A DNA stretch of 64,000 nucleotides from Sneathiella marina (GTDB lineage: Bacteria; Pseudomonadota; Alphaproteobacteria; Sneathiellales; Sneathiellaceae): contig NZ_CP098747.1 of NCBI RefSeq assembly GCF_023746535.1, forward strand, positions 248,001-312,000. The letters are read 5' to 3'. Below are positions 3,474-8,449 of the stretch, in pieces. Position 1 is the first letter of the stretch. Each line of letters opens with the position of its first letter. The notes under the pieces are model-generated. The model made no database searches. It saw only the letters and a list, made by a program, of their open reading frames with translations, and was not told the origin of the DNA. The position numbers were made by a program, and so were the translations under genes.

Positions 3474-3869
3474 ATGGGATGCCTTCTCTGCGGTAGCGAT
3501 GTCGAACCGCAAATGCGTAGTTATACTATTGAATATAAAGACCTGGAAACGGTTGTCGATTTGCCTGGTCTATTTTGTAGTAATTCTGACTGCGGTGAAG
3601 GAATGATTGAAGAATCCGCCTGGGACCAGGTTGCCAAAATCAAGGCTGAATTGAAAGCCAACTATCTTGGCGTCATGGCGCCCGACCATATTCGGGAAAT
3701 ACGCGTTAATTTGAAATTGTCTCAACGCAGAGCTGGACAGATTTTTGGTGGCGGCCCCAATGCGTTTCAAAAATACGAAACAGGAAAAGTAACCATTTCG
3801 CAGCCAATGAACAACTTGCTCAGGCTGGTCTCGAAATATCCGGAACTGATGGTTGAGCTGCGACGTTAA
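3474..3869 (+). CDS. MqsA/YgiT-type zinc-finger HTH protein, apparently without a toxin partner
   Basis: A 131-residue two-domain protein, the same length as E. coli MqsA. The N-terminal zinc site is Cys3, Cys6, Cys35 and Cys40. The C-terminal Xre-type helix-turn-helix spans roughly residues 70-131 and contains the family signature FGGGPNAFQKYE. Asn96 aligns with a DNA-contacting Asn of MqsA, while the position of the MqsA contact Arg is Lys100. MqsA is the antitoxin and repressor of the MqsR RNase and is normally encoded immediately after mqsR. Only 187 bases separate this ATG from the divergent transferase start, and no MqsR-size frame exists on either side. It is therefore an orphan antitoxin-like regulator, or part of a pair with an unrecognised partner. 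Confidence 0.8.
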   Translation: MGCLLCGSDVEPQMRSYTIEYKDLETVVDLPGLFCSNSDCGEGMIEESAWDQVAKIKAELKANYLGVMAPDHIREIRVNLKLSQRRAGQIFGGGPNAFQKYETGKVTISQPMNNLLRLVSKYPELMVELRR

Positions 3870-4015: not shown

Positions 4016-4399
4016 ATGAATACAATATTGCTGGCCGTAAACGGAACGCTGATGAGAGGGCTTGAGCTCAATCAAAATATGTTAGATGCGGGTGCCGAAT
4101 TTGTCGAAGAGGCGACGACAGCGCCAGAATACAGGCTCTGGACAATCAATGACGTCCATCCTGCCATGCAACGTGTCGAAACGGCCGGCCGTGAAATAAT
4201 GCTGGAAGTATGGGAGGTACCGGTGGACGGGGTAAGCCGCATCCTGATGCAAGAGCCGCCCGGCCTTTGTATCGGGAAAGTAAAATTGGCCGATGGTCGG
4301 ATGATTTTAGGTGTTTTGGGCGAAGCAGCTCTTTGTGCAGGGCAAGCTGAAATTACCCAGCATGGCGGTTGGCGGCGCTATTGCGATCAGGCCAGCTGA
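4016..4399 (+). CDS. free-standing allophanate hydrolase C-terminal-like domain protein
   Basis: A 127-residue protein resembling the C-terminal domain of allophanate hydrolase (AtzF/DUR1), which has a gamma-glutamylcyclotransferase-like fold. Recognisable elements are the LAVNGTLMRGLELNQN start, the central EVWEVP strand and PGLCIGKVKLADG. In full-length AtzF this domain follows an amidase domain and takes part in decarboxylation during allophanate breakdown. Here it is encoded alone. An amidase signature gene lies on the same strand at 266-1645, but three unrelated genes intervene, so a functional pair is inference only. The next gene downstream starts 151 bases away. Confidence 0.7.
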   Translation: MNTILLAVNGTLMRGLELNQNMLDAGAEFVEEATTAPEYRLWTINDVHPAMQRVETAGREIMLEVWEVPVDGVSRILMQEPPGLCIGKVKLADGRMILGVLGEAALCAGQAEITQHGGWRRYCDQAS

Positions 4400-4550: not shown

Positions 4551-4712
4551 ATGCAAAATATATCGGAAGATGATTTTGTCGCTCCTCAGGACGACAAGGG
4601 AAGTAAAAACCATTCAGCAAATAATCCGGAACCGGAATTTGCAATGGAATGCCTCGAGGAAGCACATGAAGGGCTTTCTTGGTTCGATACTACCGGTAAC
4701 GAATTTGGCTAA
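4551..4712 (+). CDS. small acidic peptide of 53 residues, unknown function
   Basis: A short frame with an ATG at 4551 preceded by AAGGAG at about 4537-4543, a good ribosome-binding site with normal spacing, ending in TAA at 4710-4712. The product starts MQNISEDDF and is strongly acidic, rich in Asp, Glu and Asn. It has one Cys (residue 34), one Trp (residue 44), and ends GLSWFDTTGNEFG. There is no signal peptide, membrane segment or family that I recognise. It converges on the MauG-like gene across a perfect 8-bp inverted repeat. The ribosome-binding site and clean frame make it a real gene candidate. A ribosomally made substrate for the facing oxidative operon is one speculative role. Confidence 0.5.
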   Translation: MQNISEDDFVAPQDDKGSKNHSANNPEPEFAMECLEEAHEGLSWFDTTGNEFG

Positions 4713-4720
4713 CTAAGATT

Positions 4721-4743
4721 GATACTGAACCTGCCTCAGTATC
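4721..4743. terminator. perfect 8-bp inverted repeat between convergent genes, probable bidirectional terminator
   Basis: GATACTGA at 4721-4728 and its exact complement TCAGTATC at 4736-4743 flank a 7-base loop. The repeat sits in the 35-base gap between the stop of the 53-residue gene and the stop of the MauG-like gene. Neither side has a long T-run, so the terminator call rests on position and symmetry. Confidence 0.4.
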
Positions 4744-4747
4744 TTCC

Positions 4748-5944
4748 TTACTCCTCACAACTCTCTATTTCCAACTCAGTCTCATCCGTCACCCTAATGG
4801 GTGCAGAAAGCGTCTGTAAAAAGGCGATCAGATCTCCTTTTTCTGAAACCGTCAAGTTCAGGGGCCTTAAAATTTTCTCACCGTCTGAATGGAGCCTATC
4901 TTCATTTATCTCTGAATAGTGATCAATCACATCTTCCAGAGTTGCCAGGCTTCCATTATGCATATAAGGGCCCGTGTCAGCCACGTTCCGAAGGGACGGC
5001 ACTTTAAACTCTCCGAAGTTTCGAAATTGTGATTTTACATGTTGTGTTCTAATGGCATCCCGCGGGGAACCATCGGAGTAGCGGCCAAGCAAATTGTATG
5101 GAGTGTTGCTTAATTGAGCGATGCCGCCAAACCGTCCCTTATCAACCTTTCCCTTGCCGACGAAATGGGGGATTCCGATGTCCCCAAATTCGCCATTTGT
5201 AAAAAGCGGACCAAAATGGCATAGATTGCATCGACCTTTGCCAATGAATATTTTTAATCCACGCTGTGCTGAGGCTGGATAGGCTGCCATTCCGGTGCGA
5301 TTATTTTGGCTCAAAGCTGAAACGAATGTATCGAATTCTGTCGGCGCGGTAACCAATGTCTCCTGATAGGCGGATAAAGCTTTGCCGACAAGGATGAGAA
5401 GTTCTTCCGGGTCGGTGTCGGCTGCGGAGACGCTAAATGTTGTCTCAAACCCGCAGGAAAGAGCCAGATCATTCGCGATCAGGTTCTTAACATGTGCCGC
5501 GGAGCTGTCCATTTCGGCGGGTGTCAATATGGGCCGAATACTTTGCGCCCAAAGGTTATCACTGGCGCCATCCCATCCGAACCAAGTCGCCCATCTCAAG
5601 TTAGCCAGGCTTGGCGTATGTCGAACCAGCAGTTGGTGGCCACGGTTCAGTGATACACCATCCATAAAGAGACGATCGGGCTGATGACAACTGGCACAAG
5701 CGAGAATATTGCCCCGCGACAAGCGCTGATCTTTAAACAACAAGTTGCCGAATTTGATCGCATTATGATCGCCTGAGAACCGATTGGAGGGATCCGGAGA
5801 TATTGAGGGCGGCCATGGCCCGTGGCTCAGGATACTCGAAATTTCAACCGTGTTGTAGATCGGGCCCGTGTCGGAAGCCGAAGCGAATCCAACCAGTCCG
5901 AAATACGCGAGAATGAGGGCGGCACACTTGAAGGTTCGGGGCAT
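4748..5944 (-). CDS. periplasmic di-heme c-type enzyme of the MauG/cytochrome c peroxidase family
   Basis: A 398-residue protein with a signal peptide (residues 1 to about 23, ending FASAS) and two c-heme sites, CASCH at 83-87 and CNLCH at 239-243. The PDPSNRFSGD segment and the heme-proximal WFGWDG and LWAQ stretches are typical of the MauG branch. In the C-terminal half, PSLRNVADTGPYMHNGS is followed by TLEDVIDHY. Tyr343 falls where bacterial cytochrome c peroxidases have the axial Met and MauG has Tyr, which points to a MauG-like bis-Fe(IV) oxidase rather than a plain peroxidase. The alignment is by eye. It is the last gene of a coupled operon: its ATG shares one base with the upstream stop. 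The protein substrate is unknown. Confidence 0.85.
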   Translation of the reverse strand: MPRTFKCAALILAYFGLVGFASASDTGPIYNTVEISSILSHGPWPPSISPDPSNRFSGDHNAIKFGNLLFKDQRLSRGNILACASCHQPDRLFMDGVSLNRGHQLLVRHTPSLANLRWATWFGWDGASDNLWAQSIRPILTPAEMDSSAAHVKNLIANDLALSCGFETTFSVSAADTDPEELLILVGKALSAYQETLVTAPTEFDTFVSALSQNNRTGMAAYPASAQRGLKIFIGKGRCNLCHFGPLFTNGEFGDIGIPHFVGKGKVDKGRFGGIAQLSNTPYNLLGRYSDGSPRDAIRTQHVKSQFRNFGEFKVPSLRNVADTGPYMHNGSLATLEDVIDHYSEINEDRLHSDGEKILRPLNLTVSEKGDLIAFLQTLSAPIRVTDETELEIESCEE

Positions 5945-6360
5945 TATTCTAGGATGTGATCCAGGGAAACGGTTTCCGTTTGCCCGTCCTTTCTAAGAGC
6001 GACAAGGAATTGCCAATTGCCTTGCATATGGAAAACAAAACCGTCCATATGGTATGCGCCCATGTCTGAAGCAATTATACTGGGTTCATAGTTCATTCCG
6101 TGTTTATGCAAGGGCATTGTGGCATTTACCCTCACATCTCCGTCAAACGGAGAGCCCGACTTATGGCAGATCCGCAGATCAACCGCAAAGGGTTCACCGA
6201 CGACGATTTCCTCCGGTGTTGTCTGTAGAGCAATATTGTAAGATTCTGTACCCAACAGGGTGAGGGACGGGTCTTGCAATATAGGGCAGGCAAAAGCAGT
6301 TATCGGCATTATCGCTAGCAATGACACCATGCCATATAGCAGGTTTAACAAGGGTTTCAT
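5944..6360 (-). CDS. secreted YtkA-like domain protein
   Basis: A 138-residue exported protein. The N-terminus has a hydrophobic signal segment ending AFA before Cys25, so cleavage by signal peptidase I is likely and lipidation is possible but not canonical. The mature part resembles the YtkA-like/FixH-like immunoglobulin-type fold, with a VGEPFAVDLRIC strand and the characteristic MPLHKHGMNYEP motif, whose His and Met residues could bind metal. The ATG overlaps the amidohydrolase stop by four bases (ATGA) and its TAA overlaps the ATG of the di-heme gene by one, so the three proteins are made together. It could be a metal or heme accessory protein or the substrate of the di-heme enzyme. Neither is shown. 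Confidence 0.65.
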   Translation of the reverse strand: MKPLLNLLYGMVSLLAIMPITAFACPILQDPSLTLLGTESYNIALQTTPEEIVVGEPFAVDLRICHKSGSPFDGDVRVNATMPLHKHGMNYEPSIIASDMGAYHMDGFVFHMQGNWQFLVALRKDGQTETVSLDHILE

Positions 6361-7172
6361 TTCTTTAAAGCCCAGTTGGATAAACTGATGGCGTTCTGCC
6401 GGGCGATTTTAGTGGCGACTTCAGGTGGCAGATCCGCCAGCCATTCACGTGTCCAATTTGCGTTATCCTGAACAAAATACCAGCGTTCCGGCGTATAGGT
6501 ATCTGTACCAAGCATAATCCTCTCCGGATATTCGAGGAAGAGTTTTCGCCACTCCGTGTCAACCTTTCCGCCGTTTGCCTGATCACTTCGAAAGGCAAGA
6601 TCTGCCGTTAGGTTCGGGTATTTCTTGAGCATAAAAGCGACCTTTTCCGGCGGTTCAAACCCGGAATGCGCCCATAGGATGCGCACATCCGGATTTTGTG
6701 CAAACAAGAATTCGACCGCTTCCGCATCGGAATGGGCATGAAGGAAAATTTTATATTGATCTGCAAGCTCAACAACTCGGCGCATCACCGGCAAATTGGC
6801 ATCTTCACCAAAGATATGAAACTCGCCAATACCGGCGTATGTGTTGGCTTTTAGCCTTTCCTCAAGTAGATCAATGACAGTCTCGTCGCGGAACCAGGTT
6901 CCCAATTCACCGCGCCGGCGGTAGGGGCGCAGGACAGGAACGATAAGATCCGGTGCGGCGTCATATAGCATTTGTGTCCCGTCATCACTGGAACTGGAGA
7001 CAAAGGCTTTTTTCAACCCGGCATCGCGTAATACTTTGACGGCGTCATCAGGTGGCAGCATGTCCCAGGCGTCGTGGCTGTAGTGAATATGGACATCCAC
7101 CAGTTGTTCGGCCGCAGAGACAATTTGGGGGGTGACCACAAAAACAATTAGGGTGGTAATGATCTTGAGCAT
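6357..7172 (-). CDS. exported amidohydrolase-family (TIM-barrel) metal-dependent hydrolase
   Basis: A 271-residue protein with a signal peptide (residues 1 to about 20, ending VSAAE) and an amidohydrolase-2-like barrel. Metal-binding elements visible are VDVHIHY near the mature N-terminus, GEFHIFG in the middle, HAHSDAEA, WAHSGF, and GTDTYTPE near the C-terminus. Family members hydrolyse amide or ester bonds or decarboxylate small acids; an exported one is less usual. It is the first gene of the operon with the YtkA-like and di-heme genes, and it is divergent from the carboxypeptidase gene. Function within the operon is unknown. Confidence 0.75.
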   Translation of the reverse strand: MLKIITTLIVFVVTPQIVSAAEQLVDVHIHYSHDAWDMLPPDDAVKVLRDAGLKKAFVSSSSDDGTQMLYDAAPDLIVPVLRPYRRRGELGTWFRDETVIDLLEERLKANTYAGIGEFHIFGEDANLPVMRRVVELADQYKIFLHAHSDAEAVEFLFAQNPDVRILWAHSGFEPPEKVAFMLKKYPNLTADLAFRSDQANGGKVDTEWRKLFLEYPERIMLGTDTYTPERWYFVQDNANWTREWLADLPPEVATKIARQNAISLSNWALKK

Positions 7173-7306
7173 TAATTATATCTCCCCTATCACCGGACGA
7201 TTAAGTCGATTGTTATCGCAATTTAAGTCTATCAATATTCCGGTAAATGCCTGATCCTGTCAAAAGCTCTATGCCTGGGGTTTACTTTTTAATTGGGAAT
7301 TCATTA

Positions 7307-8449
7307 ATGATACGTATCTCCAGTAGTTTTGACGGCGGTAATATACGCTGCCTCACATGTACCGATTCTTCTGACATTCGATTGCAGATCAAGGCGGATG
7401 CCGCCGCGGATTTTTTTCAATGGTTCCATTTTCGCTTAACCGGTGGACAGGGTCTGGCGTGTGAGATGAAAATCACCAATGCGGATCAGGCTTCGTATAC
7501 AAAAGGATGGGAAGGTTATCAGGCTGTCGCCTCTTATGACCGGGAAAACTGGTTCCGCGTGGAGACTGTTTATGAGAACGGCCATCTTGTTATTCGCCAT
7601 ACACCCGACGTCAACGCCGTGTATTACGCCTATTTTTCGCCCTATTCCATGGAACGGCATTCAGATCTTATTGCAGATGCCGGGCAATCGCCCGACGTTT
7701 CATTGAGCGTGCTTGGAGAAACTCTGGATGGTCAGGACATGGATCTATTGACCATAGGAGAGGCCGCGCCCGACAAAGAGGCCTTCTGGCTTATTGCGCG
7801 CCAACATCCTGGCGAAACCATGGCGGAATGGTGGATGGAAGGATTTTTGTCGCGGTTGCTTGATGAAGAGGATGCCGTCTCCAGGGCGCTGCTGGAGAAA
7901 ATCTGCTTCTATGTCGTTCCGAATATGAATCCCGATGGCAGCCGTCGCGGCCATTTGCGGACAAATGCCGCAGGTGCAAATTTAAACCGCGAATGGTCAG
8001 AGCCGGATATGAAGAGAAGCCCGGAAGTCTATCTGGTCCGGGAAAAGATGATTTCAACGGGTGTTGATTTTTGCCTGGATGTTCATGGCGACGAAGGGTT
8101 GCCGTATAACTTTATCGCGGGGACGCAAGGGATTCCCAGCTGGACGGCCGAGAAGGACAGGCAGCTAACCGACTTTAAACGTCTTTGGCAACAGGTAAAC
8201 CCGGATTTTCAGACAACCCACGGATATCCCGTTGCGGCAAAGGGAAAAGGCAACCTGGCGATGTGTGGAAATTACATCGCAGAAAGATTTGGCTGCCTTG
8301 CCATGACGCTGGAGATGCCGTTTAAGGACACTGCAGACACCCCAAATGATCTGTGGGGCTGGTCACCGGAACGGTCAAAAAAACTCGGAGCCTCACTGAT
8401 TGATGTTCTGCAGCAAATGGGCGACCGTCTTATCCCGCCATCCGAATAA
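7307..8449 (+). CDS. M14-family zinc carboxypeptidase (cytosolic carboxypeptidase-like)
   Basis: A roughly 380-residue M14 metallopeptidase of the bacterial cytosolic carboxypeptidase type. Zinc ligands visible are His167 and Glu170 in QHPGE and His260 in DVHGDEG. NPDG at 208-211 and NLNREW from 226 are substrate-binding signatures, and the LEMPF near the C-terminus carries the likely catalytic Glu. The frame extends upstream to 7247, but homologous proteins begin with a short ISSxFDxGNI strand, so the ATG at 7307 (MIRISSSFDG) is preferred. It has no signal peptide. It is divergent from the amidohydrolase operon and convergent with the DUF2855 gene (18-base gap). The physiological peptide substrate is unknown. 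Confidence 0.85.
   Translation: MIRISSSFDGGNIRCLTCTDSSDIRLQIKADAAADFFQWFHFRLTGGQGLACEMKITNADQASYTKGWEGYQAVASYDRENWFRVETVYENGHLVIRHTPDVNAVYYAYFSPYSMERHSDLIADAGQSPDVSLSVLGETLDGQDMDLLTIGEAAPDKEAFWLIARQHPGETMAEWWMEGFLSRLLDEEDAVSRALLEKICFYVVPNMNPDGSRRGHLRTNAAGANLNREWSEPDMKRSPEVYLVREKMISTGVDFCLDVHGDEGLPYNFIAGTQGIPSWTAEKDRQLTDFKRLWQQVNPDFQTTHGYPVAAKGKGNLAMCGNYIAERFGCLAMTLEMPFKDTADTPNDLWGWSPERSKKLGASLIDVLQQMGDRLIPPSE

Follow-up and report, generated by a model that had tools for sequence, protein, structure and literature searches.

The locus considered here raises the question of which protein a MauG-like di-heme enzyme acts on when its gene closes an operon that also encodes a YtkA-like protein and an amidohydrolase. 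The operon lies on the minus strand of a 64,000-nucleotide stretch of DNA, hereafter the window, from the genome of Sneathiella marina, which is a single contig of 4.07 Mb. A preliminary description of the locus had proposed a system that modifies proteins or peptides, with the YtkA-like protein or a small, convergently encoded peptide as substrate. Comparative analysis showed that the pairing of the YtkA-like protein with the di-heme enzyme is real and conserved. The reading that we favour, with a probability of about 0.45, is that the MauG-type enzyme oxidises a copper protein of the CrdA/CtaK fold and that the hydrolase is an accessory component. The three genes are as follows:

7172-6357, minus strand: module gene 1, Amidohydro_2 gene (PF04909), 271 residues, exported TIM-barrel metal-dependent hydrolase
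6360-5944, minus strand: module gene 2, YtkA-like gene (PF13115), 138 residues, exported protein of copper-binding type
5944-4748, minus strand: module gene 3, MauG-like di-heme c-type gene (PF03150), 398 residues

The coupling of the genes by overlaps, as reported in the preliminary description, was confirmed: ATGA at 6357-6360 is common to the stop of the hydrolase gene and the start of the YtkA-like gene, and TAATG at 5944 joins the stop of the latter to the start of the MauG-like gene. Judged by eye, all three proteins open with a hydrophobic leader that resembles a signal peptide.

Conservation of the module and of the YtkA-MauG pair

The order amidohydrolase-YtkA-MauG on one strand was found in 67 of 80 named loci; in four others the contig ended within 1.2 kb, and nine lacked it. 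These loci were the best 80 of 153 matches to relatives of the hydrolase, retrieved with two conserved hydrolase peptides, so that the choice is biased; they span Alpha-, Beta-, and Gammaproteobacteria and one SAR324 genome. Chance falls far short of explaining such an order, and the trio is a conserved module.

Across 385 genomes of the class, the hydrolase was detected in 28 (E ≤ 1e-100), the MauG-like orthologue in 26 (E ≤ 1e-140), and the YtkA-like orthologue in 26 (E ≤ 3e-28). The latter two were present in the identical 26 genomes, all of them within the 28 that carry the hydrolase, and comparison of the coordinates genome by genome placed the three matches next to each other on one contig and strand in every case. 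The co-occurrence of the three genes, which the preliminary description had suggested looking for, was observed in both samples. Two genomes, G129 and G232, had the hydrolase without the pair. Below these cut-offs lay G378 and G229, which have the pair without the hydrolase, weak YtkA matches in G204 and G223, and a degenerate YtkA without the enzyme in G088. Di-heme genes at E ≤ 1e-30 were found in 66 of the 385 genomes, many of them from other subfamilies. Tandem MauG-like di-heme genes of a different subfamily, about 1.2 kb apart, were seen in G205, G307, G024, G301, and other genomes.

When 299 genomes of the phylum were searched with the enzyme alone, a YtkA-like gene stood directly upstream in 12 of 12 enzymes of what we call the pair class, in which the two genes occur without the hydrolase. 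Further members, with the YtkA-like gene in the same position, came from two class-sample genomes and a congener (G004). A module-type hydrolase was found in none of the 15 pair-class genomes, the positive control G009 being detected at 3.9e-159; the sole hydrolase match of G634 was distant (E 6.7e-51) and about 890 kb off, and the pair loci themselves contained no hydrolase. Twelve genomes with a solo hydrolase, in turn, had no module-type YtkA (0/12) and no module-type MauG-like enzyme, the best match (E 4.7e-48) belonging to another subfamily, and the YtkA and MauG queries used there do match in other genomes. YtkA of this type was also found at none of 24 control loci of other di-heme enzymes (flanks of about 1.5 kb). 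Thus, the tight unit consists of YtkA and the MauG-like enzyme, and the pair and the hydrolase each occur without the other. The preliminary description had left its proposal open to the objection that homologues of the di-heme gene might mostly lack these neighbours; this applies to the distant di-heme genes at the control loci, which are without YtkA, whereas the orthologues keep their neighbours. Because YtkA and the enzyme share the same 26 class genomes, and because all 12 pair-class enzymes have YtkA upstream, the YtkA-like protein is the most likely partner. In this respect the preliminary interpretation was supported, and the part of it that named the small peptide as substrate was not.

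Two loci appear to preserve remnants. L023 (3298-4258) has the hydrolase followed by a short MauG-like remnant, without YtkA, and is a probable relic of the module; it was counted among the 12 solo-hydrolase genomes. L134 of G088 (6520-6927) encodes a stand-alone module-type YtkA that has lost MPxHxH and kept Gly-x-Trp. The same genus has the whole module in two other genomes (G300, G377), and L134 looks like a case of decay.

The hydrolase and YtkA formed a single open frame in eight of the 80 loci, the matched parts being separated by approximately 10-65 residues, and no further leader could be seen by eye. A quick tree called for five label changes to place the fused rows, at least two of them forced by well-supported branches; this scatter suggests that the fusion probably arose more than once. 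Outside the module, the largest flank clusters held 17 and 14 of the 80 loci. The former was antisense over the hydrolase or the enzyme in the rows compared, and the latter was an ATP-binding cassette (ABC) ATPase. Seven more clusters were annotated as a short-chain dehydrogenase/reductase, an acyl-CoA dehydrogenase, a histidine kinase, EamA, a cytochrome P450, a domain of unknown function (DUF), and an ABC-3 permease.

The enzyme, its partner, and the hydrolase

The MauG-like protein scored 109.2 bits against PF03150 (cut-off 25.6) and carries two CXXCH motifs, which places it in the CCP_MauG superfamily. It remained far below the cut-offs of TIGR03791, the MauG equivalog model (157.4 of 443.85 bits), and of TIGR04039, the MbnH model (134.8 of 362.85 bits). 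The closest solved sequence was 6e1c, annotated "Di-heme enzyme" (E 1.6e-27), which we take to be MbnH. The residues of interest are encoded as follows:

5684-5698, minus strand: first CXXCH, residues 83-87; His87 in 69/69 aligned rows
5216-5230, minus strand: second CXXCH, residues 239-243; His243 in 69/69 rows, aligned with MauG His205
4916-4918, minus strand: codon of Tyr343, aligned with the heme-ligand Tyr294 of MauG (HMMER alignment to 3rn0)
5549-5584, minus strand: Trp121, Trp124 (MauG Trp93), and Trp132 within residues 121-132, from row conservation

The 69 rows exclude L169_pair0, an unrelated di-heme gene. Tyr at the MauG ligand position, to which the preliminary description had drawn attention, was found in 27/27 module, 15/15 pair-class, and 4/4 MbnH rows of this set. 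In the separate alignment of module enzymes it was kept in 28 of 29 rows, the exception being L067, which goes out of frame. Classical bacterial cytochrome c peroxidases (bCcP) have a Met ligand and His/Met ligation of the high-potential heme; by position, the module enzymes would not have this ligation, as all 27 rows carry Tyr. Counterparts of MauG His205, Glu113 (here Glu144), Pro107 (here Pro138), and Tyr294 were present in all 42 rows linked to YtkA, and that of Trp93 in 40 of them.

On a tree of 70 di-heme enzymes, built without L067, which leaves its frame, and L086, which contains a masked stretch, the 27 module rows formed one clade with support of 100/99. Together with the pair-class enzymes they made up a clade of 42 rows (97/99), apart from the remaining enzymes and from four true MbnH, defined as sequences above the TIGR04039 cut-off. 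In each of the 42, the gene immediately upstream encodes a YtkA-like protein. Trp121 was present in 42/42 and Trp132 in 41/42 rows of this clade; in the other 27 di-heme rows, position 121 was Ser, Thr, or Ala in 15 and position 132 was Glu in 22. These alignments mark Trp121 and Trp132 as features specific to the YtkA-linked clade; the two may possibly form a hole-transfer path to the partner.

The YtkA-like protein scored 26.4 bits against PF13115 (cut-off 25.9), a marginal match. Its predicted structure had a mean predicted local distance difference test (pLDDT) score of 87.8 and a beta sandwich of the CopC-like/CrdA-like type. The best fold match was Helicobacter pylori CrdA (Z 12.8, root-mean-square deviation 2.0, 99 aligned residues), followed by a DUF4426 protein (Z 9.8) and copper proteins of the FetP/P19/FtrA group (Z 9.6 and below). 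By sequence, the only match among solved structures was again CrdA, and it was weak (E 0.12). Two conserved motifs were recognised:

6088-6117, minus strand: MPxHxHGMNY, YtkA residues 82-91, putative copper loop, aligned with the Met-rich CrdA loop
6013-6030, minus strand: HMxGxW, YtkA residues 111-116, putative copper ligand(s) and the invariant Trp116, from row conservation

Ten residues (C65, M82, P83, H85, H87, N90, H111, M112, G114, and W116) were identical in all 86 distinct module YtkA rows; M89 was kept in 84 and Y91 in 82, and C25 was missing once, by a gap. M82, H85, H87, M112, G114, and W116 did not vary either in the pair-class proteins that were aligned (14 of 15, L132 being left out), so that M82, H85, H87, M112, and W116 were conserved in 100/100 aligned rows of both classes. 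Profile alignment placed MPxHxHGMNY on the MPEMPGM of CrdA and HMxGxW on its SMNGTW. The copper loop of CrdA is described as a Met cluster, with Met99 further along (PMC9182242), and CtaK/YtkA has been implicated in CuA assembly (PMC13344008). Fold and motif together thus suggest that the YtkA-like protein is a copper protein. Most pair-class YtkA (L132, L133, L158-L169, L021) had the motif GGMPxHxHGLPT ... FxMxGWW, and those of L132, L133, and L160 a His-rich N-terminal stretch.

The hydrolase scored 51.7 bits against PF04909 (cut-off 26.4) and is an Amidohydro_2 protein. His28, His30, Glu117, His145, His147, His169, and Asp224 were found in 83/83 module, 11/11 solo, and 2/2 divergent solo rows, L023, L038, L061, L063, L089, and L105 being left out of the count. 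By analogy with TatD, we take the HxH, Glu, His, His, and Asp residues among them to be the metal ligands. The nearest folds to the hydrolase model (pLDDT 90.4) were the uncharacterised amidohydrolases 3cjp (Z 22.1) and 3irs (Z 21.0); the best rows for phosphotriesterase-like proteins, TatD, and dihydroxybenzoate decarboxylase (Z 18.4-19.6) ranked below both. A search of solved structures with the hydrolase profile gave no sequence match at E 0.001. The 83 module and 11 solo hydrolases did not differ in their conserved Trp, Tyr, His, and Asp residues, save for one solo row with Glu for Asp191. Since both forms share these aromatics, there is no sign that the hydrolase is a target of the di-heme enzyme, and its modification by that enzyme, also considered as a candidate, was weakened.

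Proposed oxidation of the YtkA-like protein and alternative explanations

Two known systems provide the closest functional models, and in known pairs of methane-oxidising bacteria the heme enzyme is presumed to modify its copper protein. MbnP reportedly contains kynurenine formed from Trp and binds copper. MbnH-MbnP pairs a di-heme MauG-like enzyme with a neighbouring partner protein (PMC3621798), as the module does, and 6e1c lies closest to the module enzyme. However, the partner in the module belongs to the YtkA/CrdA fold family and not to MbnP, a hydrolase is added, and the enzyme differs from MbnH in its low TIGR04039 score, separate clade, and extra Trp121 and Trp132. A search of the S. 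marina genome with TIGR04052 (WxW family, the MbnP-type partner) gave no match at E 1. In CorA/CorB and MopE/SACCP, a copper protein is co-transcribed with a di-heme peroxidase-like gene, much as in the module; the Cu(I) site of CorA/MopE holds a kynurenine derived from Trp, and the di-heme partner was suggested as its maker on the basis of co-transcription (PMC3912023). CorA has, by its description, two His and kynurenine in another fold, whereas YtkA has a Met/His/His/Met motif in a small sandwich.

The module enzyme resembles MauG, the enzyme of TTQ maturation in methylamine dehydrogenase, in its His/Tyr ligation position and in the counterparts of Glu113, Pro107, and Trp93, but falls far below the TIGR03791 cut-off, and no mau genes were detected among the 10 window proteins scanned. 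YtkA, for its part, resembles CtaK/YtkA and CrdA in fold, position of the metal loop, and Gly-x-Trp; unlike CrdA, it has His85 and His87 where the CrdA loop is Met-rich, and it is tied to a di-heme enzyme. Because fold and motif mark YtkA as a copper protein, MbnH-MbnP and CorB-CorA are closer models than MauG. The best reading is by analogy that the module works like either of them and belongs to neither. Since it shares their logic but not their families, we propose YtkA as the protein that the enzyme oxidises, close to the Met/His site.

The core of the system would be a two-protein unit of an exported YtkA/CtaK/CrdA-fold copper-binding protein and a dedicated MauG-type di-heme enzyme. H2O2 would react at the open heme of the enzyme, two oxidising equivalents would be stored over the hemes, one of which would be His/Tyr-ligated, and the holes would leave via Trp124 and the clade-specific Trp121 and Trp132. 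A YtkA residue at or near the Met/His copper site would then be oxidised. The candidate target is Trp116, the only invariant aromatic, with Tyr91 and the ligand Met or His as alternatives. The modification would set the copper binding or redox state of YtkA, as the conversion of Trp to kynurenine does in MbnP and CorA/MopE. The metal-dependent TIM-barrel hydrolase, made in step with YtkA and sometimes fused to it, would probably be a client or an accessory. A more specific version is doubtful: the module would represent a separate route to a copper site with an oxidised residue, in which a MauG-type enzyme with a Trp relay of its own (121/124/132) activates, post-translationally, a copper chaperone of the CtaK/CrdA fold, and in the three-gene form the matured protein would dock on, or be fused to, a hydrolase that uses or receives copper.

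Several observations weigh against the proposed oxidation of YtkA. YtkA only just passes the Pfam cut-off, and a six-frame search of its own genome gave no PF13115 match at E 0.001. The pair class does not share N90, Y91, or the two Cys, which are substituted there, and in most of its aligned rows H111 is substituted as well. Gly-x-Trp occurs in CrdA and in most YtkA/FixH-like proteins lacking MauG, according to a survey read by eye and uncounted, in which rows L140, L147, L151, and L155 showed no YtkA-like sequence; the degenerate L134 also retains it without the His motif. With Gly-x-Trp a general feature of YtkA-like proteins and CrdA, Trp116 may be structural, and its invariance was rejected as proof of a kynurenine site. 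No copper gene was found among the eight recurring flank clusters annotated. MauG Trp199 is a surface residue that transfers holes to the substrate, and its counterpart is Gly in 22 and Ala in five of the 27 module rows. These 27 rows come from loci selected for having all three genes, YtkA included; the test of pairing thus rests on the pair class and the class sample. Tyr at the heme-ligand position is likewise carried by 18 of the remaining 23 di-heme enzymes. Such a ligand does not prove protein modification, because BthA has it and reduces H2O2 using an external donor (PMC6405878).

The example of BthA leads to the explanation, unlikely in our view, that the module detoxifies peroxide, with the enzyme acting as a periplasmic H2O2 peroxidase and the copper protein YtkA as its electron donor. 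Membership of the bCcP/MauG superfamily agrees with this, and Trp121 and Trp132 could equally serve electron entry; however, the YtkA motif reads as Met/His rather than type-1 copper, and Tyr343 takes the place of the Met ligand of classical bCcP enzymes. It is improbable that the hydrolase is what is matured, with YtkA delivering metal to it and the MauG-like enzyme modifying it, as proposed for the mtoX-SCO1/senC-mauG operon. That operon combines an enzyme, a copper chaperone, and MauG, with fusions, in the same logic and order (PMC5739008), although in the module the hydrolase replaces MtoX, YtkA replaces SCO1, and different proteins are fused. The scattered hydrolase-YtkA fusions fit this explanation. 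Against it, the hydrolase occurs without the module-type YtkA or MauG in the 12 genomes searched, its conserved Trp, Tyr, His, and Asp do not distinguish module from solo rows, and the pair dispenses with it in all 15 pair-class genomes.

The two facts about occurrence, that the pair and the hydrolase are each found alone, also argue against a three-step modification, in which the enzyme would convert Trp116 of YtkA to N-formylkynurenine and the hydrolase would remove the formyl group. The hydrolase gene does come first in the operon, is sometimes fused to that of YtkA, and encodes a full ligand set of a metal-dependent hydrolase, but the nearest folds are varied, and we regard this scheme as highly improbable. 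Finally, the genes might handle copper independently and share an operon only for common regulation, their products never being in direct contact. Operons often group functions loosely; nevertheless, the shared set of 26 among 385 genomes, the 12 of 12 pairings recovered with the enzyme alone, and the repeated hydrolase-YtkA fusions make this quite improbable.

To our knowledge, MauG-type enzymes have few known protein substrates, and for most of the large bCcP/MauG superfamily none has been assigned. The YtkA-adjacent clade names a candidate partner for one clade of these enzymes. Should the proposal be correct, the YtkA/CtaK copper proteins, implicated in cytochrome oxidase assembly, would be linked to an oxidative maturation step, and an uncharacterised family of exported hydrolases would gain its first context. 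Among the open-licence papers listed, none was recognised by its title or abstract opening as describing the YtkA-MauG pair or the trio, a scope that leaves absence unproven.

Neighbouring features

Around the module, the following features were noted:

4551-4712, plus strand: 53-residue open frame, acidic, one Trp and one Cys, convergent with the MauG-like gene and ending 35 bases from its stop
4721-4743, terminator-like call on the minus strand: hairpin between the convergent stops, 9-pair stem, fold -11.2 kcal/mol, z -4.22
7247-8449: carboxypeptidase gene upstream of the module and oriented away from it
3474-3869: MqsA-like antitoxin gene (PF15731, 86.1 bits)
4016-4399: gene of 127 residues for an allophanate hydrolase C-terminal domain (PF21986)

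The 53-residue frame is as the preliminary description had it in position and composition, and a plausible ribosome site can be read from the sequence. Its proposed role as a substrate was not supported: a search of 23 further genomes, including 14 congeners, gave no homologue of the peptide at E ≤ 0.01 (best E 0.098), and there was none among the plasmids searched or at related module loci of other genomes. The frame was accordingly judged an orphan outside the module and rejected as a substrate; it may encode a genuine small protein in S. marina. The hairpin is possibly a terminator, perhaps a bidirectional one, and is one of five terminator-like sites, where shuffled sequences give 3.6 (standard deviation 1.9). 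The convergent layout of the peptide frame and the MauG-like gene may be due to this hairpin between their stops. No toxin partner was noticed adjoining the MqsA-like antitoxin gene, and none was searched for. The allophanate hydrolase C-terminal domain stands alone, as a gene of its own.

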